Positions 3,396-20,239 of a stretch of 20,912 bases of DNA are shown here, piece by piece. The DNA is from Ochromonadaceae sp. CCMP2298 (lineage: Eukaryota; Sar; Synurophyceae; Ochromonadales; Ochromonadaceae), in NCBI GenBank assembly GCA_026770595.1, contig MU633869.1, positions 1 to 20,912 on the forward strand, read 5' to 3'. A model generated the notes under the pieces. It was not told the origin of the DNA. It was given only the letters and a program-made list of their open reading frames with translations, and did no database searches. How positions within the stretch are numbered: position 1 is the stretch's first letter; the number at the start of each line of letters is the position of its first letter. Position numbers and translations under genes: made by a program.

Positions 3396-4958
3396 ATGGC
3401 AGAAGTACAGAAAGCACCAGCAGCAGGAGGCAGTGATTGGCAAAATACGTTAAAACAGCCTGTGAAGGACACACGCGTGCAGACTGAGGTGCGTTGATAA
3501 GTCTAATTATTCTGCAGTTGATCCGCAGCCTCATATTTATATCCTCCATTCCATTTCCTATTCTCCACAGGATGTGACCGCGACCAAGGGCCACGAATTT
3601 GAGGACTACTACCTCAAGAGGGAATTGTTGATGGGCATTTTCGAGAAGGGGTTTGAGAAGCCTTCTCCTATTCAAGAGGAGGCGATCCCCATCATTCTCG
3701 CCGGTAAGGACGTTCTTGCTCGCGCGAAGAATGGAACTGGCAAGACTGCGGCATTCATTATCCCCTGCCTCGAGAAGGTCGACAACACAGTGGCAAAAAT
3801 TCAAGGTACGTGCCGAGGCTTTCTATTTTATTTTAGGAGTATATATCTATCTGCCACGCCTCGATGACTTTACAGCTCCCTCTACCGAAAATTTGTGACG
3901 GAAAAATCTAACAGACCGGAATCATTAGTGTTAACAATGAGAGGCTATGCAGAAATCCACTGACGCCCTTACACCCTTTCGCTCCGCCTTAATAACCGCA
4001 ACTAATCCGTCTCTCCCCTGTCTCTGTGTATATTTCCCATCTAGTGCTGATGCTCGTGCCCACAAGAGAGCTGGCTCTGCAGACGTCCGCTATCGTGATG
4101 GAGATTAGCAAGCACATGGAGATCCAGGTCATGGCCTCCACGGGGGGGACCAATCTGCGCGACGATATTATCCGCCTCTACTCGCCCGTGCACGTGGTAG
4201 TGGCCACCCCTGGGCGCATCCACGACCTGTCTGAGAAGGGCGTGGCGGACCTGAGCTCGTGCAAGATCATAGTGATGGACGAAGCCGACAAGCTGCTGTC
4301 CCCGGAGTTCAGCGAGGTGCTGGAAGCGCTCATCAGCAAGTGCATGCCTGACCGCCAGATCTGCCTGTTCTCTGCGACCTTCCCTGTGGCCGTGAAGGGC
4401 TTCAAGCAGAGGCACCTGCCCAACGCCTACATCATCAACCTGATGGACGAGCTGACCCTCAAGGGCATCACCCAGTACTACGCCTTCGTGGAGGAGAAGC
4501 AGAAGGTGCACTGCCTCAACACGCTCTTCGCCAAGCTCGACATAAACCAGAGCATCATCTTCTGCAACAGCGTGAACCGCGTAGAGCTGCTGGCCAAGAA
4601 AATCACCGAGCTGGGCTACAGCTGCTTCTACATTCACGCCAAGATGAAGCAGGCAGACCGCAACCGCGTATTCCACGAGTTCCGCAACGGCGCCACGCGC
4701 CACCTGGTGTGCTCTGACCTGTTCACGCGCGGTATCGACATCCAGTCCGTGAACGTGGTGGTCAACTTCGACTTCCCCAAGACCGCAGAGACCTACCTGC
4801 ACCGCATCGGCCGCTCGGGTCGTTTCGGCCACCTGGGTCTGGCTATCAACCTCATCACCTACGAGGACCGCTTCTCGCTCTACAAGATCGAGCAGGAGCT
4901 GAGCACGGAGATCAAGCCCATCCCTGCGTCCATCGACCGCAACCTCTACTGCAAATAA
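3396..4958 (+). CDS. DDX6/DHH1: DEAD-box RNA helicase DDX6/Dhh1 (mRNA decapping and P-body factor); three exons
   Basis: Exons are 3396-3488, 3571-3805 and 4045-4958, giving 413 residues. Intron 1 (3489-3570, GTGCGT...CCACAG, phase 0) and intron 2 (3806-4044, GTACGT...CATCTAG, phase 1) join cleanly; the second restores [13 protein letters not shown]. All DEAD-box motifs are present: Q motif (GFEKPSPIQ, ~59), I (AKNGTGKT, 83-90), Ia (PTRELALQ), TPGR, II (DEAD, 188-191), III (SAT, 219-221), IV (IIFCNS), V ([19 protein letters not shown]), VI (HRIGRSGR, 362-369). The flanking [12 protein letters not shown] and the terminal [14 protein letters not shown] are specific to the DDX6/Dhh1/Me31B branch. 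The protein remodels mRNPs and couples translational repression to decapping in the cytoplasm. It lacks the long low-complexity extensions of some animal and yeast orthologues. The ATG at 3396 has a good context (ACAATGG) and follows the A-rich leader. Confidence 0.93.
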
Positions 4959-6974: not shown

Positions 6975-9065
6975 ATGTTGTCACGCAGCTTCTCTCTGGC
7001 CAACAAGGTGAGCCACCTGCAACTGCCCTTGCTAGCTTCAATCTACCCCAGTCTCGCTTTTCAACCCCCGCGTCTGACCCTCCATTCCCCTCTCCCTTGC
7101 ACCTTGCATGCACAGGCCTCGCGTCAGTTGGCCCCTCAGCAGAAGTGGCGCAACTTCCACGCCTCCATGGGCGTGCGCGCCACCGACGTTGGCGACATCA
7201 TCGGCATCGACCTGGGCACCACCAACAGTTGCGTGGCCATCATGGAGGGCAAGGCGCCCAGAGTGATCGAGAACGCGGAGGGAGTGCGCACCACTCCCTC
7301 GGTGGTGGCGTTCACCAAGGACGGCGAGCGGCTAGTGGGCCAGGCGGCCAAGAGGCAGGCCGTTACCAACCCCACCAACACGCTCTCCGCAGTCAAGCGC
7401 CTCATCGGCCGCTCCTTCGAGGAGAAGCTGGTGAAGGACATCAAGAAGATCGTGCCCTACAAGCTGGTCAAGGCGGACGGCTCTGACGACTGCTGGGTGG
7501 AGGCGCAGGGCGTGAAGTACTCGCCTTCGCAGATCGGCTCCATGGTGCTCGGCAAGATGAAGGAGACGGCGGAGGGCTTCCTGGGCCGCCCCGTGTCCAA
7601 GGCGGTCATCACCGTGCCTGCCTACTTTAACGACAACCAGCGACAAGCCACCAAGGACGCGGGCAAGATCGCTGGCCTGGAGGTGATGCGCATCATCAAC
7701 GAGCCCACCGCTGCCGCACTCGCATACGGCCTCGAGAAGGCGGACGGCAAGACCATCGCCGTGTTCGACCTGGGCGGCGGCACCTTCGATATCTCTATCC
7801 TAGAGATCAACGGGGGCGTGTTCGAGGTCAAGGCTACCAACGGAGACACCATGCTGGGCGGGGAGGACTTCGACGAGAACCTGCTCAAGTACCTTCTAGC
7901 CGAGTTCAAGAAGGAGTCTGGCCTGGACCTTTCCAACGACCCCCTAGCCATGCAGCGCCTACGCGAGGCGGCCGAGAAGGCCAAGCGCGAGTTGGACGGT
8001 CTTTCTTCCACTGAGATCTCTCTGCCCTTCATCACGGCGGACGCTACGGGCCCCAAGCACCTGAACGTGCGCCTCACCAAGGCCAAGTTCGAGTCACTCG
8101 TGGAGGAGCTGGTGCAGCGCACCCTTTCCCCCTGCAAGACCTGCCTCAAGGACAGTGGGGTGAAGAAGACCGAGTTGAACGAGGTGTTGTTGGTGGGCGG
8201 CATGACGCGCATGCCCAAGGTGCAGGAGACAGTGGAGACCTTCTTCGGCCGCAAGCCCTCCAAGGGAGTCAACCCCGACGAGGTCGTGGCCATGGGTGCG
8301 GCCATCCAGGGAGGCGTGCTGCGCGGTGACGTGAAGGACATCCTGCTGCTGGATGTGACACCGCTCAGCCTGGGACTGGAGACTCTGGGCGGCGTGTTCA
8401 CCCGTCTGATCAACCGCAACACCACCATCCCCACGAAGAAGGCGCAGACCTTCTCCACCGCGGCGGACAACCAGACGCAGGTGCAGATCAAGGTGCTGCA
8501 GGGCGAGAGAGAGATGGCTGTGGACAACAAGTCTCTCGGAGAGTTCGAGCTGGTGGGCATCCCCCCCTCCCCCAGAGGCGTGCCTCAGGTGGAGGTGTCC
8601 TTCGACATCGACGCAGACGGCATCCTGCACGTGTCTGCCAAGGACAAGGCCTCGGGCAAGGAGCAGCGCATCATCATCCAGAGCAGCGGCGGCCTGAGCG
8701 ACAAGGACATCGAGCAGATGGTTAGGGACGCGGAGCAGAACCAGGCTGCCGACCAGGCCCGCAAGGAGGGCGTGGAGGCTCGCAACGAGCTGGACAGCCT
8801 GGTGCACAGCGTCACGAAGAACCTTGCCGAGCACGCAGACAAGCTGGACGACGAGACCAAGGAGGAGGTGGAGAAGGCAGTGGAGACGGCCAAGAAGGTT
8901 GAGGAGGGCGCTGATCTAGAGACGGTGAAGGAGGCTGTCAGCGCGCTGTCCAACGCCAGTATGAAGATCGGGCAGGCGATGTATGGCAAGAAGGACGGCA
9001 AGAAGGAGGAGGAGACGGAGGAGAAGGACGCGGAGTACGAAGACAAGAAGGACGAAAAGAAGTAA
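6975..9065 (+). CDS. HSPA9/mtHSP70: Mitochondrial HSP70 (DnaK-type chaperone); two exons
   Basis: I predict exon 1 at 6975-7007 and exon 2 at 7116-9065, giving 660 residues. The 108-nt intron (7008-7115, AAG|GTGAGC to CATGCACAG|GCC) is preceded by a long pyrimidine tract; it is in frame and stop-free, so unspliced reading inserts 36 residues. Splicing yields an ideal matrix presequence: Arg/Ser-rich, acid-free, ending near QKWRNFHAS. The nucleotide-binding domain has IDLGTTNS (~42-49), [10 protein letters not shown] (~226) and VGGMTRMPK (~372). The interdomain linker ends in [17 protein letters not shown] (~420-436), followed by the substrate-binding beta domain, a helical lid and a Lys/Glu-rich tail. 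[16 protein letters not shown] and the DVTPLS linker are DnaK/mitochondrial-type, not cytosolic or ER. It would drive protein import and folding in the matrix with J-proteins and a GrpE partner. The tail lacks EEVD and KDEL, consistent with this. Confidence 0.95.
7008..7115 (+). other. Predicted 108-nt stop-free intron within the mtHSP70 presequence
   Basis: Donor AAG|GTGAGC, a C/T-rich tract over 7078-7106 and acceptor GCATGCACAG|GCC. Phase 0, multiple of three, no stop. Removing it changes the N-terminus from a hydrophobic, Pro-rich stretch to a classical mitochondrial leader, which is the main support. Confidence 0.8.
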
Positions 9066-9772: not shown

Positions 9773-12700
9773 CTAAGGCTCTGGGGGGATTCCCAGGTCT
9801 CGTAGGTCGACCTTCAGCATGCGCTGCACATGGCGCCGCACCTCCGGGCGCATCTGCTGCAGCCTCTCCCGCACGACCTTGGCCCTGCGCACCCTGTGCA
9901 CCTCGTTGAACTGATCCAGTGTGCCGTACGTGCCTCCGCAGCCGGCGATGTGGGCGTGGGCGTCTGCGCCGCAGTCTGCAAGGCACCAGCCGCAGAACCC
10001 AGCGCGGCAGCCGGAACATGACAGGGCAAAGCAGCCCTCGAAGTCAACAAAGGCTCGGTGGCAGCCTACCCGCGGGCATCTCAAAGTCAGCACATTGTCG
10101 GCAATATCCATGCGCTGAATGATGGCCTCGCGCTCGTCAGCGTCCGTGACTGCCTGGATTTGCCTGAACTCCTCCCTGAGGCGCGTCTCCTGCTCGCTCA
10201 GCTCACCCTCCACTGTCTTGCGCGTGCACAGGTCCATCTTCAATTGAAGCAGCGCGTCGAACACCGTGGCAGGTCCGCCCTGCGCAGCCACCGCCTGCAG
10301 GCTATAGGACTCCCGGCACTCCGGGCAGCACAGATTACCCCCGTCGTCGTAGTACTTGATGGCCCCTGGCTCAGCGGCGGCCTGCACGTATGAGTGGAAG
10401 CAGGTCTCCCAGCAGACCAGGTGCCCCGCAGAGCAGCGCAGGCCCTGGGTCTTCGCAAAGGCGTCGCCGCAGATGCTGCAGGGGGTGCGCAGCCGCAGCT
10501 GCAGTATAGCGCAGGGCACGGCGGCTCCCGGGACCCAGTGAAAAGTCTTCCCACTGGAGGGGTCTTCCTCCGCAGTGGAGACGCAGTCAAAACCACTGTC
10601 GACCGCCTCCTTGCGTAAGTGGTTAGCTTTCTTGTTGGCGGCGTCCCTTCGCTTGCTCTTCACCTTCTGCGGCACGAAGGGCCCAGGTGCGTCCAGGCGC
10701 TTGCGGCTGTAGACTGCGCCCACGCATATGAGTATGGTGCCGTCCTCGGCCGCCTGCTGCTGCAGTGACTCCATGCACAGCGGGTGCAGCGCGACGCCCC
10801 GGCCGAAGTGCGTGTCTTCCTGCTGGGTGAAGTTCTTCATGGCGCTGCTCTCCCTCGCTGCCAACTCCTGCCCTGCATCCCTCTTGGCCGATCTCAGCAC
10901 AGAGTAGACCAGGGGATAGTGCAGGTCGAAGTCCTCGCTGCTGGCGAACTCGGGGAGTGCAGACTGCCAGGCCGAGCCACCGTCCTTCAGGTACGCGAAG
11001 TCGTACGCTTTGCGCAGAATCTGCTGCCGAGCAGTGACGTGATTCTGCAACAGTGAGCTGTGCCCCGGTGTCACTATGGGCATGCGGTGGGCGCTGTCCA
11101 CGCTGCTTAGACGCTCCACCTCTCGTACAGCTCTGTCGAACGCAGCCTCCCCGAACACCTCCAGCTCGTGCTGCGCAGGCAGGGCGGAGATGGCCGCAGC
11201 CCAGTGCTCCTGTGCGCAGACCTTGCAGACCCTCTCGCACGCCTGCAGTGTCCTGGGGTCGGCTTCTTCGCCGCACTGCCAGGAGATGCGGTGGCCGCAC
11301 TGCGCTAGCTCCACACTCACCCTGCTGCGACACGCGTAGCTCTTGCGCCAGCACTGCGCAGTGACTCCGTTGATGCTGCAGACAGAGCAGGAACGCGTGA
11401 CCATGTTGACGCACTTCTGCTCGGTGGTTTGTCGCTGGTGGCAAGTCACTTCCCGCGTGTGGCCGCAGAGAGGGTCGGGACATTTGAGCTCGACGATCTC
11501 CAAGCAGGGCGGGGGCTTTTCGGCGAATATCCTGCAGCAGGGGTACTCCACTGAGTGGCCGCAGAGCCGCACCAGTGTGATGGGCTCCTTGCACGCCAGC
11601 ACCAGGGCACCCTGCAGGGCGCGTGTGGGGAAAGCAACCCTCTCTCGCAGGTCCTCTTCGCGCAGCAGCAGCACCGCGCTCGCCCCCTGCTCCTGCTCCA
11701 GCCCCTGCTCCTGTCCCTGTCCCTGCCCTGCCCCCCCCCCAGAGCCAATGCTGCCCGTAATGCACTCCACTGCAGGGGGTCCGGCGCCCGCCCAGGGGTC
11801 CCACGTGCCCACAGCCTGCGCCGCCCAGCAGGCGACCTGCACATCGTGCCCGCAAACAGGGTGGGCTGCGGAGACCTCTGCGTCGCAGGCGGGGGGCTGC
11901 AGCTCCCCCGAGGCGGTCCACTCGAAAGCACGGTAACACGGTACATTACCTCTGCTGTGCCCGCACACGTAGCGGAAGCTCACCAGCTCACCACACTGCG
12001 CGGTGACCCCACACGGGCTACAATAGAACTCGTCTGCGAGCACGGTACGCGTCGCACTGCCCTCCATATCTCGTACCTCCAGGGCCTTCCCAGCTCCGTG
12101 CTGGGCGACCACCTCCGCTACTTGGTGGCAGGGAACCTCCACTGTGTGCTTGCAGCGGAAGAGCATGCTTTGCACAGGGCTGCAGCAGGGGGGCGGGTCT
12201 GCGGCGGACAGCAGCTGCTGGAGTTCGTAGCAGGACCCGGGGGTGAAGGAGTGACTCCCGCACGAGAAGGGGTACACATCGGCGTTCCGCGCTCGGCAGT
12301 GTGGCGCTGGCAGCTCTTCCTTCTCGCAGCACCTTACCTCCACGATGTGTCCGCACCGCAGCAGCCGGGCGATCTGTTTCACGCAGGGACGGAGTCTGCG
12401 CTTGCGTAGTAGCGTGGCGGCGAGGGCTCTGCACTGCATGGTCTCGGTGTGTCGGATCTGCGGCTGTGCGGAGGGGAGAGAGCAGGCGCGTACCATTACG
12501 ATCTGCTGGGTGCACAGCTGGAGCAGCGCCTGCAGTACGCGAGCATCAGGCACTAAGGCCTGCGCGGAGAGAATGGCTGTCTCCTGCACCTGCAGCACGC
12601 CCTCTGTGCGCACGACCCCCAGTGTGGGCACTCCCCAGGGGTCCCAGCGCCGTACCTCGTCGGCCAGCCAGCACGGCGCTGTGACGTCGCCTCCGCACAG

Positions 12701-15700
12701 GGCGCAGGGGATCTGCACTGCACTGATGCACTTCAGACCTTCGACTGCTTCCGAGCGTGCCATCTGGAAGGCCTGCGCGCAAGGAACGCCCCGAAAACTG
12801 TGGCCGCAGGGACCCACAAATGTCACGGGGATGTGGCAGTCTGGTATCGCTAGCGACAGCAGCGATCCCTCGGTGGGCCCGTACTGCTCCCCCCACTGCA
12901 CGCTGCCGCCGGCTTCGATCCCGTACCCACCGCACAAGTTCCACGCAGATTGCAGCTCTCGCGCGTCGTGGCATCTCAGAGACAGACGGTGCTTGCAGCG
13001 CGGTCGGCAGGTGGATACGTCTGTCAGGCAGCGCACAGATGCCTCAGCCTTCGCCTCCGCTATGGCCTCGTGACAGGACATCTTCAGAGTGCAGCCGCAG
13101 GGCCGCACGCGCTCCACCTTGCGCCCGCACACTGGGGGCGTCTGCTCGTAGAGACGGCGTTTACAGCAGGTAAGCTGCTGAAACACGTGGCCGCACGCGG
13201 GGTGGTGGAAGTCGCCTACACGCACTGCGCAGTCGGAAAGCTGCGGGCCCGAGCCGTCCAGCGTGTGGCAGTGCACATCGAGTCTGTGGCTGCACTCCGG
13301 TCTCTGGAAGCAAACCATCTCCATGCAGAGGAAGCACCCTAGCGCCCGGGCCAGGCTGCACCCCTGTGGACGCGGGATGTCCTTGCAGAGGAGCGGGACG
13401 TCTTGGTGTCGCACGCAGGGTCTGTCCAGCACCACTAAGCACTGGTCCGTGTGAGCTGCCATTGTGGTCTTGTGGCAGTGGCACTGCTTTCCGCAGGGGT
13501 GTCCACAAGGCAGGGCAAAGCTGCACGTCTCCTGGCACAGCTTTTCCCAGTTGGCCGCAGTAGGGAACTCGGTAGCGCTAGATGCATCGCACACACTGCT
13601 GCGGTGCTGGGGGCAGCACAGCGGGATGCCAGGGCCGACCCTGCCGCGGGAGAAGCCCCCGGCCTCTGCGGGATTGGGCATGGGCGTGGCGGACAGCTGG
13701 GTCACGAGGTCTCGCCAGTGCACAGGCCCATCGGCCCCCGATGCCGTCTTTGTGACCCCGTCTACTGCGCCTACGATGTAGAAACCCAAGCGGGCTCTGC
13801 TGACTGCCACGATGAAGCGGTTTAGCAATGCGACGAACCTATTGCCTGGGCGTGTGCGCACGAGAGAGAGAATCACGATGTCGTTCTCGTCTCCCTGGTA
13901 CCGATCCACAGTGCTCACGTAGACGCAGTCGGGACTTGGGGCCTTCTGGTTCGGCACGTAGGCGGGCAGGCACTTCTCCTTGCGCAGCAGCTTCGTGATA
14001 AGCATCTTCTGCCCCTTGTACGGAGTGATCACACTAACAGCCGCGCCGGGCACACCGCACAGCTGCAGGTGCTTTACTAGCGCCACTACTGCGGCCGCCT
14101 CCGCCTGGTTGCAGGCCGACAGACCCGCCATTGGGCGGCTCTCCGCATTGCCCGGCAGGTTCCAGAAGTAGATGCAGGACTGCATGCCGGGCACGGGTCT
14201 GCCGTCACCGTCCCACATGTCCACCGTGCTCTGGAGCGCAGTCTTCGGGCCTCTGCGCAGTGCGACATCTGCCACCCTCTGCTGGGCAGTGTGGGGGTGG
14301 TCTATGACGGTCACCAGGTCGCTGTAGTGATCCCGTGTGAGGTCTGAGATGCACTCGCGCATGCGCCGCTGCTCGTCCAGCACTGTGCAGTTGACCTGGT
14401 GGGCCTGCTTGTCGCGGGCAGATACCTTGCCCGTGATGAGCCTCTCGAACAGCGATGTCTTGATCGAGGGGAGAGCCATCTCCAGATTGTACCAGTGGTT
14501 CTGCAGGAAGGCGGGCAGCTGGCGGTGGTCTCCTATCAACTCCAGCTTCCTCAGCGACTTCACCGCCAAGACCGACATTAGAGTCGGCTCTAGAATTTCG
14601 CACGCTTCCTCCACCACCACGGCGAAGGGCTCGGCAGCACGTATGGCATGCAGGCGGCGAGAGGCGCCCACCACCGTGGCGCCCACCACGCAGGCCCTCT
14701 TGAGCGAGGCGGCGCTGGCCTCCGCCTTCTCCCTCCGCGCGTCTGCCAGGTGCTCCTCAGTGGCGCACAGCAGCGCCCCCTGCACAGCCACCATGGTGCG
14801 CAGAAAGACCGATGCAGCATGCAGGCGAGCAGTTCCAGGCATGTCCCAGGTCCAGGACTGCACACACAGGGCCGAGGCCTGCAGGGCCTGCTCGGGAGTG
14901 AGCGCGTCCTCCACCATCCCCAGCTTCGCAAAGACGCCCCCGTCATCGTCCGCCTCATAGTCATCATCGCTGTCGCTGCCGCCAAGGATCTCCCTCAGCC
15001 GGCGCTGCTCGTCATTCTCCACAGGCTCCTCCGCCTCCTCACCCTCCTCGCCCTCCCCCTCCCCCTCCCCCACCTCCATCTCCACCCCTCCTTCTTTAAG
15101 GCAAGCATCCTTGCCTTGCAGCTCCTCCGCCGCTGGGCCACTGGGCGGATTGCAGTCGAGTGCTTCGAAGTCCATCTCATCGGGATCCACGCCCGCACCC
15201 ACGCCCTCCACGTCCAAGAAGTCAGCGTCGTGCACGATCTCGTACTGCTCGGGCAGGGCGGGTGCGGGGGGTGGGGGAGGGGGCAGGTTTGCCGAGGATG
15301 CAGCGCGCTTACGAGAACCAGCACCTATGCCTGTGCCAGCGCCTGTGCAGTGTAATAGTAGAAGGGCATAATTGTTAATAAGCAACAGCAAACAGTCATC
15401 AGGGGGGCTTACCCTTCTGCCTGGGCGGCACAGGTGGCCTTTGGACGGGAGGCGCGGCTGGTGTGTTGGCCACCTTCAGCGCGCGCGATGAACGGTCGCG
15501 CGCCGCGACATGGCCGGGACACAGCCACACCCCGTACTTATCGACGCTTGCCTCTGCATCGCCTCCATACACCAGCTGGCGTACAGAGCACTGCAGCTGG
15601 GTCAGCAGGGACCTTTCCCCACACTGCAGTACTACGTACCCCGCACTCAGCCGCTCAGCCACCGCCACACATTTCTGCCCTGATACGCTGGTGGCTCCAG

Positions 15701-18700
15701 CGTGCTGCCTTTCGGTACCGGTGCTGGCACTGCTGTCGGTACACATCTTGTGCTCAGTGGCGGCCGCAGTATCCTCCCAGCTGCACAGGGAGTAGGAGCT
15801 GCTGGAGCCACTGCCTCCCTCACCGCTCCCGTCCTCGCTATTGCCGTCGCTACCGTCGTCACTGCTGCCGTCACTGCTGCCTTCACTGCTGCCGTCGCTG
15901 CTCCCACTGTCGCTGCTGTCGGATTCCCCATCATCGCCGCCTGCATCCATCTTACCAACTGCATCTGCATCTGCCTCGGTGCAGAGCGTGAGCTGCAATG
16001 ACTGGGGCAGGAAGCGCGCGGGCTGGGCAGGCATGGACAGATACCTCGCCCGCTGCACTGCATGATCAACGAGGTCCCTCTGACTCTCGTGAGTGCCGCA
16101 GAACCAGTAGGCATTGCGCACAGGCTCAGCAGACTTGGTACCACAGCGCTTCTCCTTCTTGGAAATACCACAGCACTGCCCGTCCATGTGCTGCCAGCCA
16201 GCAGCTGCGAGGAAGACGTCTTTGACCTTGCTGTGCTCCTTAACAGCCGCGTCGTGCACTGCGCAGTAACTCGATGATGACTGCAGTGCGTTGCAGGTGA
16301 GCCCCCCGGCGAGCACATACTCGCACAGGGAATGCGCGTCGCACACGTTGCGGGGGGGAGGTGCGGAAACGGGGGACTCCAAGGGCAGCCCCTGCTGCAG
16401 ACAGACGTGGCAGGTGTGCTCCGGGCAGAAGAGACTGTCCAGCTCGTTGTCCAGCACCATACGGTGCCGCAGGCAGGGAGGGTAGTAGGGGTGCGCGCAG
16501 CGGTGCAGGAGGCATAGACCAGCCCTCGCCGTCTGAGGGAAGCTCAGGTCCACACACTCTCCGCACGCGGGCATGCGACAGGTGTGCTGGGTGCAGAAAT
16601 GCTGGTACCCGCCACTGTCCACAGTTCGCTCTTCCGCGCAGCTGGGCACTCCGCACTTGTGCGCATCGCAGAGGAGGGACGGCCAGCAGCGCGGAGAGTC
16701 CGACAGCTGCCCCTGCTCCACGCAGCGGGTGCAGCAGTGGTCAACGCAGAACGCATAGGGGCACAGTTGGGCCTGGTCACAGTTATCCAGTGCGCATTGG
16801 TGCTGCAGACAAGCATGCAGACCCACCCTGCACGACACCACCTCCTCCCGAGAGAGCAGGCACGTCGGACAGCAGTGCTCGCTGCAGTGCTCTGCGGACG
16901 AGATGCGCTCCATGGGGCAGGCGAAGGGCTGGAGGCCTATATGTCCGTGAACGATGGCGTTGCAGCAGTGGGCTGCGCAGAAAGTAACGTGCGGGCTGAT
17001 GCGGCAGTGCAGGCAGTCAGTCGTCAGGCACGCGTGCTCCTCGCAGCAGTAGGGGCTCTCGGACGAGGCGAAGTTGGCCGCCCAGCTGGTCCGCATGCAC
17101 TGCCTGGGCAGACCGCGCACATGTGCCGCACAGCGCGCAGGAGGCATCTGGCCGCTGAGCCACATCTGCACCCAGGCCTCCAGGAGACTCACCTCCTCCG
17201 GGAGGGCAAGTGACGTCCAGTGCTCGACGTCGGCCAGCCAGCGAGATAGCAGACCGGAGAATGCCTGCGGGGCGTACGGAGCGACAGTATCGGGGCTCGT
17301 GGACGTATCTCGCACTAGCTGGTAGGCCGTCGCAGGCTGCAGGAAAGGGCGCACTGCCGCAGCGTTCGGCACCTGCGCGGTGTCAAGTCTAGCGCACAGC
17401 AGCAACGCGTGCAGGAGCAGCCTGTGGCCGTCGGAGAGCTGCCTCGGGTCACTGCCTATGCGCTGAGCCTGGTGAGTCACAGGATGTCAAAAGGAGCATT
17501 GTTAGTCTAAGGATCCTTCATCAAACCACACCCCAGGTCCCGCATCCCACTCCCAGGCCCCAGGTCACTCACCATCACGGAGTCCCTGGCCAGCTCCTGG
17601 CAGCACACGCCCCATTTCCGCATCTACCCCTTGGCGAAGCGCTGCACGCCGATGCGCTCCCTTAGCTCGTTCTGCCACCGCTTCTCCGCAGGCGAATTCC
17701 TCTCCGTGAAGTCCAGCAGCTGGGGATGCTCGGGCTTGCCGCAGCGAATGAGGGCGGTGGGCTTGAACTCCCGCGGGTTCGCGTTCACCACGTCGCAGAG
17801 GAATTCGTCCAGACTGTGAGGGAGTGACGGAGAACGGGTGTGTGAGTTTCTGAGGCGCAGTCCAGGTAGTGCAGTCCAGAGCACCGGGTAACTACCTGTA
17901 ACAACCTGCCTTACCTGTGATTCTTGTAGGAGAGGGCTACGATGGGCCCCACGTTGTGCCCCTGCGCCATGGCTGCCTTGCGGATCTCGTTGAGCGCGAG
18001 CACCAGGCAAACTCCCACGTAGCTCTGATGGGTTTAAAGGTGGGTTTAGGTGGGTATAGGTGGGTGCATGGGTGTATGAAGGCGTTAGTCGTGATCAGAA
18101 GGCAAATAACTACTGCAGTCTTACCTTGCCCGTGCCGGGAGGTCCTTGTGTACAGTGCGCAGCGGAGTGCAGCGAGGCCATGAACGCCTCAAGCTGCGTG
18201 CCGCGCAGGGTCTTCACGGGCCTGAGGGCGCAGATTTGCTCGCTGAGGTGGGCCTTGGCGGCCTCTGGAAGGGACCTGACACACTCGATCTCGGACTGCT
18301 GGATGGCCACCAACACGCTCTTGCCCAGCGATGCCCCATGCCCATCCTCCTGGATCGGAGGCACGGGCGGTGATGGCTGCGCCCCCAGTATCCGCTCAAT
18401 AAACGGAATCTGGGCCAGCTCTGAGGGGAAGCCGGGATCTGCGAATGTGGACAGCACGGAGACTACCTCGGGTACGAACACACGTAGGTCGAGGATGGCC
18501 ACTGGGGCGCCCACATCCAGCGCGATGTCGGTGTCGCATCGGAGCACCGCGCAGTCCGCACGAGAGAGCAGGCGCACAGTAATGTTGCCGTTTCGTCGAT
18601 GGGAGGCGTCGGGTTCGTTGGAGGTGAAGCTGGTGGGCACTATCTCTCCCCACAGAACACTCGCCTTCGGTCGCAGCGGCTCACACGACACGTCCAGTGG

Positions 18701-20239
18701 GACAATGGCAACAAGTGCAGAGCACTGTAGGCGATATGAGGTTAGCCAGTTCGGTTCGATCTTGGGCGGCTTCCGGGATTTTAGATTCCCTAGGTGGAAG
18801 ACTGCTCCGTCTCCTCGGCTAGACTCACGGCGCACCGTTGCGTCGTATACGTCTGTGCTGGCGGATGATCCAGGACGCCCCACCAACCTCTCCTGCTCCA
18901 TGGAGAGACAGGTCGCGCACAGTGCATCGTGGTTGTGGCGGTGGCACATCCACTGCGCCGGCTTGCCGCAGACGCGCACGCCCTGTCCGGGGCCACGAAT
19001 GTGCGCACAGCACGTAGCCTTGTGCCGCCCCCCTGCGCTGAACGCCGAGCACAGCAGCGGCGCACCGCAGATGTCACTGCCATCAGTCGGGCGACCTCCC
19101 TTCCCATGTGCCTGGCTCTGGCCTTGACGGCATTTCGGCCAGACTGCCCCTGCACCCCAGTAGAAAGCGAGAAGCGTCCATAGGCGCAACAGGCTCTCTC
19201 CGTACTCTGCAGCGTCTGCGTACACATTCGTCAGGCCGGGGGTAATCAGCCAAGAGCTGTCAGAGGAATCCTGGAGCCAGCTCAGAGTAGGCGACGCAAT
19301 CCACCCCCGCCACTTCGCCTCCAGGTCGTTGGCTCCCAGGGCAGGGACGTCATTGCCCGAGATCTTCCCAACGCCCAGTCCCGTCTTGAGCGCGTTCAAG
19401 TACGAGTGCAGGTCGCCGACCCGCTCGTACAGGGGCTGCAGGCGAGCGAAGTCCTGCACAAAGGCAGGGGTCAGCGCCGCCATGGCCTGTCCGTAGGCCT
19501 GCACGAACGCGGTGCACGAGGCAACTGCAGTGCGCGTGTCGCTTACCAGAGACAGGGACTCGGGGCTGTTCAAGCGGCTGCGCACGACGTCGGCCAGCAC
19601 GATCATGTAGGTGACCAAATCGTTGGAACTGTTGGAACTGTTGGAATTGTTGCTGTGCGATTTTGATGCCGATTGGCTGCGCTGAGCATCACTCTGGATT
19701 TTCGCTTGGATCCGACGTAGCGCCTCGAGCACGTCGCACGGATCGGGGGCGACCTTCTTTACATTGGGAAGGTGCATGTACGTGCGCGACAAGGCCATCG
19801 TAGACAAATCCTGCCCCAACGCCCCCATTGCAGCAGCTTTCCAGCAGCCGAACCAAAGATTCAGGCAGACTGCACTGTCGGTATCGAACGCAGGGTTGCT
19901 CCTGCCACCAAAGCTTGTCGTGGGAGTAGATCGCAAGTGCTGCCAAAAGCGACTGATCTCAGGACTCACAGCAGACTCATTTCCGCTGCGTGCGCCATAT
20001 TGCTGAGCACTTTGCTGGGGTGGCCCGTGGTACCCAGATCTCTGCGCCGGTCCCCCTAATGATGCCACACAGCCAAGAGAATAAATTAGTTTAGTTATTC
20101 ATATTCACAAGAGATGCAATAAAGAGAACTGACCTCCCGCTGAGCGTGGCCAATTCTTATGCTCTTGTGTGTTCTTCCTTTTTGTTCCTCGCCCAGGAGC
20201 TCTTCCAGGAGCTTTCGCTTTATCATTGCCCTTCTTCAT
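9773..20239 (-). CDS. Giant ZNFX1-like SF1 RNA helicase with Cys/His arrays and C-terminal RING plus RING2-like finger; six exons, one in-frame TAG
   Basis: Exons: 20239-20134, 20055-18125, 18024-17915, 17813-17573, 17468-15413, 15342-9773. The introns (78, 100, 101, 104, 70 nt) have good GT-AG words and all phases agree. The product would be about 3,336 residues. Order: basic N-terminus (MKKGNDKAKAPGR...); helical region; small Cys/His finger (~363-425); QGPPGTGK|S Walker A (~672-680); motif Ia (VALSYKNHSLD); Cys/His array (~938-1256); Ser/Asp tract; motif II VVEEACEILE (~1722); III GDHRQLPA; QRRMRE; TPYKGQ; V STVDRYQGDENDIV (~1963); VI AVSRARLGFYIVG (~1995); CGH modules (~2091-2838); RING (~3098-3158); RING2-like (~3234-3283). 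VEEA in motif II and RYQGDEND are hallmarks of ZNFX1-type UPF1-like helicases, which bind RNA in antiviral and small-RNA pathways. A TAG at 17624-17626 breaks exon 4, so the gene could be split, recoded, spliced around it or damaged. Exons are sure; the joined model is inference. Confidence 0.78.
9935..10090 (-). other. RBR RING2-like zinc finger (C-terminal domain of the giant protein)
   Basis: The sequence reads LRCPRVGCHRAF, then DFEGCFALSCSGC, then FCGWCLADCG with a following DAHAHIAGC. This fits the RBR RING2 pattern C-P-x(2-3)-C ... G-C-x3-x-C-x2-C ... F-C-x2-C, with the Cys of EGC in the position of the catalytic cysteine. A His-rich DAHAH tail supplies further ligands. Ligase activity is inference. 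Confidence 0.6.
10310..10500 (-). other. RING-type finger in the giant protein
   Basis: PCSICGDAF (C-x2-C), LRCSAGHLVCWETC (C-x3-H-x2-C-x2-C) and CCPECRESY (C-P-x-C) give a C3HC4-like RING about 75 residues before the RING2-like finger. RING fingers recruit ubiquitin-E2. The spacing to the second finger is shorter than in classical RBR ligases, and a separate IBR is not evident. Confidence 0.6.
11270..13520 (-). repeat. Array of about 14 reduced NF-X1-like CGH zinc modules in the giant protein
   Basis: Modules of the form [PLV]-C-G-H-x(4-6)-C recur in order: PCGHPCGKQC, PECSHRLDVHC, PACGHVFQQLTC, PCGCTLKMSC, RCKHRLSLRC, PCGHSFRGVPC, RCGHIVEVRC, CGSHSFTPGSC, RCKHTVEVPC, VCGHSRGNVPC, VCGHDVQVAC, LCGHSVEYPC, LCGHTREVTC, QCGHRISWQC. 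Only the first resembles a full NF-X1 finger. ZNFX1/NFX1 proteins carry CGH-C fingers after the helicase, so position and type match, but most units here have lost the second half. Two units (about 12823-12630 and 11983-11789) are parts of a larger duplicated block. Confidence 0.75.
13765..14625 (-). other. Helicase core motifs II-VI of the giant protein
   Basis: From high to low coordinates: II VVEEACEILE (~14625-14585), III LIGDHRQLPAF (~14540-14506), QRRMRE (~14380-14350), TPYKGQK (~14032-14009), V VSTVDRYQGDEND (~13918-13880), VI RFIVAVSRARLGFY (~13822-13775). These are the RecA2 and late RecA1 motifs of SF1B UPF1-like helicases; catalytic Glu, the GD-x-x-Q and the Arg finger are intact, so ATPase activity is plausible provided motif I is joined in the same protein. 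Confidence 0.85.
15343..15412 (-). other. 70-nt intron of the giant gene (between exons 5 and 6)
   Basis: Donor AAGG|GTAAGC, branch-like TTATTAAC, acceptor ACTGCACAG|GC. Phase 1. It joins PPRQKG to AGTGIGAGSRKR. Without splicing the frame stops after PPRQKGKPP. Confidence 0.8.
15784..15955 (-). repeat. Ser/Asp/Gly low-complexity tract encoded by a 12-nt-like repeat
   Basis: The plus strand shows repeated CTGCCGTCACTG-like words (about 15842-15922), read on the minus strand as Ser-Ser-Asp-Gly units (SSDGSSEGSSDGSSDD). It lies between the Cys/His array and the RecA1 motif II. Likely a disordered acidic linker and prone to length variation. Confidence 0.7.
16089..17045 (-). repeat. Tandem C-x2-H-x-C Cys/His array inserted within the helicase
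   Basis: About 11 units with a [FLYV]-C-x2-H core recur every 22-30 residues (two longer gaps of 46 and 55): CCEEHAC, FCAAHCC, HCSEHCC, FCVDHCC, LCDAHKC, FCTQHTC, LCLLHRC, FCPEHTC, VCDAHSLC, YCAVH, FCGTH. Most are followed by one or two more Cys at 3-6 residues (for example CGVPSC). The array lies between motif Ia (exon 3) and motif II (exon 6). I do not recognise a named family; it looks like a zinc-binding repeat. Confidence 0.7.
17469..17572 (-). other. 104-nt intron of the giant gene (between exons 4 and 5)
   Basis: Donor GTGATG|GTGAGT and acceptor TGACTCACCAG|GCTCAG, phase 0. Size matches the other introns of this gene. It joins RDSVM to AQRIGS. The strong donor downstream of the in-frame TAG argues that exon 4 really extends past the stop. 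Confidence 0.75.
17624..17626 (-). other. In-frame TAG inside exon 4 of the giant gene, followed directly by ATG
   Basis: Exon 4 reads QRFAKG-TAG-ATG-RKWGVCCQELARDSVM before a strong GTGAGT donor. The stop falls between helicase motifs Ia and II. A 42-nt in-frame excision (17627-17586, GTAGAT...GGCCAG) would remove it and restore AKG-DSVM, but its splice words are weak. Readthrough, reinitiation, a real nonsense change or a sequence error are the alternatives. Confidence 0.7.
17814..17914 (-). other. 101-nt intron of the giant gene (between exons 3 and 4)
   Basis: Donor CACAG|GTAAGG and acceptor CTCCCTCACAG|TCTGG, phase 2. It joins SYKNH-S-LDEFL, restoring helicase motif Ia as in ZNFX1-type proteins. 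Confidence 0.8.
18025..18124 (-). other. 100-nt intron splitting the Walker A motif, with a 10-bp tandem repeat
   Basis: Donor GGCAAG|GTAAGA and acceptor CCCATCAG|AGCTAC, phase 0. It cuts GPPGTGK|S between the catalytic Lys and the following Ser. Inside it, plus-strand 18038-18077 holds four degenerate 10-base units (AGGTGGGTTT, AGGTGGGTAT, AGGTGGGTGC, ATGGGTGTAT). Confidence 0.8.
20056..20133 (-). other. 78-nt first intron of the giant gene
   Basis: Donor GCGGGAG|GTCAGT, branch-like AACTAAACTAAT, acceptor CATCATTAG|GGGGACC, phase 1. It links the basic first exon (20239-20134, 35 codons from the ATG) to exon 2, which has no ATG of its own near its start. An in-frame TGA lies upstream of the chosen ATG. 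Confidence 0.7.

Follow-up and report, generated by a model that had tools for sequence, protein, structure and literature searches.

The window analyzed here, the 20,912 nucleotides of contig MU633869.1 from Ochromonadaceae sp. CCMP2298, carries on its minus strand the gene for a giant ZNFX1-like helicase in which an SF1B core is followed, in order, by an array of CGH (NFX1-like) zinc units, a predicted PARP fold, a RING finger, and a RING2-like finger resembling that of RBR ubiquitin ligases. This architecture is real, conserved, and widespread in protists. Directly supported are the order of the domains, their conservation in one chain, the resemblance to RBR and PARP folds, a conserved cysteine at the presumed catalytic position, and the loss of the PARP triad; fold and sequence together give good support to the ligase-like end, and the integrity of this particular copy, interrupted by an in-frame stop, is doubtful. 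We put at roughly 55% the probability that the protein belongs to a protist family of giant RNA-surveillance helicases working like ZNFX1, its RNA sensing and ligase activity being what we infer by analogy.

A search with exon 6 returned 52 matches, 43 of them at 733-1459 bits before a drop to 107 bits; because so many homologs reach such scores, the architecture is not a product of chance. With presence of a domain defined as alignment coverage of at least 60%, helicase domain 2 was found in 43/43 homologs, the PARP fold in 38/43, RING1 in 36/43, and RING2 in 34/43; in the last-mentioned 34, all four of these parts occur together in a single chain. All tested parts, including the N-terminal region and a Cys/His-rich insert within the helicase, were shared by 11/43; the nine homologs without RING2 include models that stop early. 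One of these, P0031 (bearing a transcript-assembler name and labelled complete), is a single open reading frame that encodes the insert as well as core, PARP fold, RING, and RING2, which speaks against two separate genes; the single-chain homologs, P0031 included, favour the joining of helicase and RING parts in one gene that a first-pass annotation of this DNA had claimed. The members with a species name belong to Ectocarpus fasciculatus (brown algae), Cymbomonas tetramitiformis (green algae), and Chromera velia (chromerids). Part of the family may already be catalogued, as PF26600 and PF26601 were precomputed on homologs; no title on it appeared among the literature matches listed, with most subscription journals and all preprints outside the coverage. 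Viral contigs scanned with exon 6 alone, a query that reaches close relatives only, gave 3 pattern matches and 0 confirmed.

The helicase core points to ZNFX1. The SF1B motifs listed by the first-pass annotation were all found in the order it gave (GPPGTGK at residue 673, VVVEEACE at 1723, GDHRQLPA at 1752, DRYQGDEND at 1961, and AVSRAR at 1994), as were both of the hidden Markov models (HMMs) it had named for the core, AAA_11 and AAA_12. Among solved structures, the nearest to the window core was human ZNFX1 (9q9z; 83 bits), followed by Aquarius (65) and UPF1 (46); for homolog P0006 the corresponding scores were 139, 63, and 60 bits, and its match to human ZNFX1 extends beyond motif VI into the first CGH finger, with which its own first CGH finger aligns. 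The predicted position on the ZNFX1 branch also held in two trees, both built without UPF1, SETX/Sen1, and the trypanosome ZNFX1-like proteins P0047 and P0049: the family (support 100/99) stood beside ZNFX1 with 94/86 support in a 27-row tree, Aquarius being next, and with 84/76 support in a 22-row tree. Rows were chosen by motif pattern (52 proteins tried, 19 kept, 33 unrecognised; 13 of the 33 were retried, with P0010, P0017, P0031, P0041, and P0053 recovered and 8 not), and with such thin sampling and three outgroup rows on branches of at least 4.7, long-branch effects are possible.

Like ZNFX1 (known from vertebrates and, as ZNFX-1, from C. elegans), the window protein combines an SF1B core with a motif Ia of NHALD type and a motif II of the form EEA-EV-E, a CGH array directly after the core, and a ubiquitin-ligase element near the C terminus of the same chain. 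In contrast, the PF25396 domain and the RZ finger (PF20173) of ZNFX1 were not detected in the window protein: PF25396 was found in P0053 and P0054 but not in 4 window pieces (E<=1) or P0006 (E<=0.01), and the RZ finger was found in P0054 (residues 1803-1851) but not in the window pieces (E<=1; E<=5) or 4 homologs (E<=5). The window protein has in addition the Cys/His insert, the PARP fold, and the RING and RING2-like tail. With its core nearest to ZNFX1, the protein counts as ZNFX1-like, not as a ZNFX1 proper.

Profiles and predicted folds liken the tail to RBR ubiquitin ligases, as an RBR-like module and not a full RBR. RING1 proved to be of the RBR type, the RING2 profile matched RING2 of ARIH1, CUL9, and Parkin, and the presumed catalytic Cys was kept in 34/34 rows, as were 14 zinc-type Cys positions. 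With RNF216, Parkin, and ARIH1 the tail has in common a RING1 fold and a RING2 whose catalytic position is held by a conserved Cys, and with RNF216 a helical tail as well; unlike those ligases, it appears to have a pair of long helices in place of the IBR. The pairing of RING and RBR RING2-like fingers previously read from this DNA is accordingly upheld in profile and fold resemblance, while the IBR of its proposed HMM check stayed below the cut-off. The "Plant I/Helicase" (DEAH11-like) RBR subfamily likewise has an RNA helicase and an RBR-type tail in one chain, but there an SF2 DEAH helicase, not an SF1B ZNFX1-like core, is joined to an apparent full RING-IBR-RING2. In P0176, a protist DEAH11-like SF2 helicase, RING2 and the helical tail are 45% identical to those of the window. 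The same ligase end is thus seen on two unrelated helicase classes.

Comparison of predicted structures placed a PARP (ADP-ribosyltransferase) fold, missed by the first-pass annotation, between the CGH array and the RING. RCD1, tankyrase, PARP15, and TASOR rows were tied in Z, and no subfamily was favoured. With the H-Y-E columns placed by motif alignment, not superposition, the triad His was present in 0/35 rows at column 180 (2/35 at the neighbouring column 181) and the Tyr in 1/35 at column 218, and the Glu column was mostly gap; on these alignments the domain looks like a dead ADP-ribosyltransferase that has lost its triad. It resembles in this respect the pseudo-PARPs of TASOR and TEX15 (RDTS domain), ZAP/PARP13, and RCD1, where a PARP fold has likewise lost its catalytic residues; three of these proteins (TASOR, TEX15, and ZAP) act on RNA. 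P0053 has a ZNFX1-type helicase (PF25396, AAA_11, AAA_12) and then two PARP domains (residues 1793-2170), and so shares with the window the succession of ZNFX1-type core, CGH array, and PARP; unlike the window protein, its first PARP keeps HGT, GIYFA, and EFVV motifs (by eye), and it ends after the second PARP, with no RING or RING2 seen. A distant relative, P0048 (E 2.3e-25), has a CGH array and, by eye, a PARP-like stretch, with a different C terminus lacking RING and RING2. In the Foldseek comparison of the long model, the top two rows were chains of the Toxoplasma pre-conoid ring (9ya0; E 9.1e-6 and 1.7e-5) at a root mean square deviation (rmsd) of 29-30. Folding left aside alignments A1 and A2, in which the fragment's start was scattered. 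A PF00644 scan of the alga's own assembly found no further PARP and is uninformative, since the control genomes were also silent.

Both Cys/His-rich arrays stand well above chance. The CGH array has 12 units against a mean of 1.03 and a maximum of 5 in 1,000 shuffles, and the insert, which the first-pass annotation had missed and which is present in 21/43 homologs, has 9 C-x2-H-x-C units against a mean of 0.33 and a maximum of 3 in 1,000 shuffles. By its units, the array of CGH fingers reported after the helicase is there; in the zf-NF-X1 check proposed for it, Pfam reported no NFX1 finger for any window piece (E<=1). CCCH zinc-finger matches occur in family members P0026 (N terminus, residues 1-100) and P0028, reminiscent of ZAP. 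ZAP pairs CCCH fingers with a pseudo-PARP.

With coordinates counted over the whole window and GT-AG junctions applied, the gene reads on the minus strand from 20239 to 9773 as six exons with 3,337 codons and a TAG stop, in agreement with the extent and exon number first assigned to it. An upstream start exon is needed because the first Met of exon 2 follows the conserved FWQHL region. The N-terminal region in exon 2 gave no Pfam match and no PDB sequence match at E<=1; its residues 300-640 are present in 11/43 homologs, and the others often start later. The P0006 stretch homologous to exon 3 aligns with GKTYVG...NHALDQFL of human ZNFX1, and the frame of about 3,300 residues described before is confirmed in length but not as an uninterrupted reading, codon 779 being TAG. 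All 19 homolog rows that cover this site are gapless there, and the Trp following it is kept in 15/19; since these rows run across the TAG, the stop lies in coding sequence and not in an intron. A 42-base GT...AG short intron that would keep the frame is ruled out by the same 19/19 rows, and an alternative code with TAG as sense is disfavoured because the gene itself ends in TAG at 9773-9775, matching homolog ends.

Several observations weigh against the reading of the window protein as a working, ZNFX1-like surveillance ligase, among them that in this assembly the single chain is obtained only by reading through a stop. The TAG may mark a null allele or a recoding site, or may stem from a sequence or assembly error. 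That the copy is a pseudogene or null allele, truncated at 778 residues before motif II while a paralog does the work, is a serious possibility to which we give somewhat less than even odds: the TAG falls within conserved exon 4, and a second copy in the same assembly (contig C450; 44% identity) has a 2,462-codon frame free of stops and shares the intron position after GPPGTGK, one of the 43 homologs (P0005) matching it in the stretches compared by eye. Yet the TAG is the only premature stop among 3,337 codons, no frameshift occurs, and both the exon junctions and the 2,558 codons that come after the TAG are intact; a sequence or assembly error would explain it just as simply.

Other such points concern the ligase-like tail. 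No IBR lies between RING1 and RING2, where the predicted model has helices 86-91, 96-135, and 139-156 and no Cys is conserved between C80 and C160 (tail model and alignment numbering); the Pfam IBR match stayed under its cut-off (15.6 of 24.3 bits); two residues after the presumed catalytic Cys, where ARIH1 has His, 33/34 rows carry Ala and 1/34 carries Asp; the RING2 profile also reaches RNF4, which is not an RBR, at 0.0089; and the RING parts reach a VIA Z of at most 7.0, with an rmsd of 14.0 for that row. These absences, and the loss of the RING1 His in 5/34 rows, would suit a tail that is a structural or ubiquitin-binding remnant on a surveillance helicase whose zinc modules merely bind RNA or partners. 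We consider this unlikely, as conservation of the Cys and of 14 zinc-type Cys positions in every row is hardly to be expected of a remnant, and the same RING2 is the third finger of an apparent full RBR in P0176.

The PARP assignment, too, is one of predicted fold only: a sequence profile found no match in the PDB at E<=10, the hhalign comparison with one P0053 PARP was weak (E 0.0034, probability 3.9%; three shuffles gave E 0.036, 0.43, and 0.52), and that with the other P0053 PARP was absent (E 0.68). For the helicase, the best NCBIfam match was the IGHMBP2 family, far under its cut-off (80 of 349 bits), with a prokaryotic PLuB helicase model also near and also far under. A nuclear or cytoplasmic RNA-processing role, Aquarius-like or UPF1-like and not in defence, would fit the next-nearest solved cores and a family whose 43 homologs take in algae and many metagenome contigs, but it is less probable still, given that P0006 scores more than twice as high to ZNFX1 as to Aquarius and is homologous to ZNFX1 into its first CGH finger (the smaller margin of the window core, 83 vs 65 bits, tempering this), and that pseudo-PARPs occur in RNA-directed silencing proteins according to PMC10578480 and PMC7532188.

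In the ZNFX1-like scheme that we prefer, the SF1B core, together with both Cys/His-rich arrays, would use ATP to bind single-stranded RNA that is foreign or aberrant and to load onto it, and the dead PARP fold would serve as a binding module, as in TASOR and ZAP. By analogy with RBR enzymes and ZNFX1, RING1 would recruit a charged E2, and ubiquitin would move first to the invariant Cys in the RING2-like finger, then to the protein itself, bound proteins, or RNA, the RBR-like finger taking the place of the RZ finger of ZNFX1. In a review (PMC13270118), ZNFX1 is described as an RNA-activated ubiquitin ligase that senses long single-stranded RNA with ATP and auto-ubiquitinates, with RNA ubiquitination reported by one of two groups; PMC12075652 describes RNF213 as a transthiolating ligase whose RZ Cys/His dyad is also in ZNFX1. 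More tentatively, and with the odds against it, the family might constitute a third kind of helicase or ATPase ligase next to ZNFX1 and RNF213: a ZNFX1-like helicase would have acquired a pseudo-PARP together with an RBR module lacking the IBR, and RNA loading would trigger thioester ubiquitin transfer, possibly onto RNA. If true, ZNFX1-type RNA sensing was combined with ubiquitin ligation on two occasions, by different chemistry; an RBR-like transfer finger on a protist relative of ZNFX1 suggests that this coupling is old or arose more than once. For RNA surveillance in algae, whether antiviral or directed at transposons, the family would offer a testable entry point; a pair of RING1 and Rcat lacking the IBR would reveal which parts of RBR enzymes are needed.

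Table 1. Features of the helicase gene, in reading order, and neighbouring genes in the 20,912-nucleotide window.
Feature	Position	Strand	Basis or remark
Candidate exon 1 (35 codons, ATG start)	20134..20239	minus	open frame and GT...AG junction
Exon 2 (N-terminal region up to helicase motif I, GPPGTGK)	18125..20055	minus	junction reading
Exon 3 (SYVGVCLVLAL...SYKNH)	17915..18024	minus	junction reading and homolog alignment
Exon 4 (contains in-frame stop)	17573..17813	minus	junction reading and homolog alignment
In-frame TAG (codon 779)	17624..17626	minus	amid conserved coding sequence of exon 4
Exon 5 (linker, Cys/His-rich insert, acidic stretch)	15413..17468	minus	junction reading
Cys/His-rich insert (C-x2-H-x-C units)	16089..17054	minus	between helicase motifs Ia and II
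Exon 6 (motifs II-VI, CGH array, PARP fold, RING, RING2-like finger, tail, stop)	9773..15342	minus	
SF1B helicase core, motifs II-VI	13757..14689	minus	Pfam AAA_12 E 2e-29, AAA_11 E 1.4e-9
CGH (NFX1-like) zinc array, 12 C-x-H-x(5-8)-C units	11252..13618	minus	residues about 2057-2845
Predicted PARP/ADP-ribosyltransferase fold (pseudo-PARP)	10487..11146	minus	H-Y-E triad apparently lost
RING finger, RBR RING1-like	10310..10480	minus	residue 3103
RING2/Rcat-like finger	9938..10078	minus	residues about 3237-3283
Codon of presumed catalytic Cys (GCFAL)	10031..10033	minus	residue 3252; aligned to ARIH1 GGC Cys
HSP70, one intron	6975-9065	plus	next gene left of the helicase gene
DEAD-box helicase (part)	3996-4958	plus	
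DCC1-like thiol-disulfide oxidoreductase	1179-1796	plus	
MFS transporter	2-805	minus	

The neighbouring HSP70 identifies the host as the alga that had been supposed from the sequence: it agrees with P0056 of Ochromonadaceae sp. CCMP2298 in 660/660 residues, a 36-residue intron reading set aside, and NCBI places the strain in Ochrophyta. A paper on Arctic algae (PMC9756366) describes CCMP2298 as an Ochromonas, a chrysophyte, that came from a core of sea ice, and gives 61.1 Mbp for its draft assembly; the assembly as searched here (G000) comprised 11.2 Mb in 724 contigs, partial or a subset. Elsewhere in it (contig C52:19150-22698), the end of an SF1 helicase and, behind it, another Walker A motif (GRSGTGKTT), the second, lie in one frame, an arrangement that by eye is TRANK1-like.
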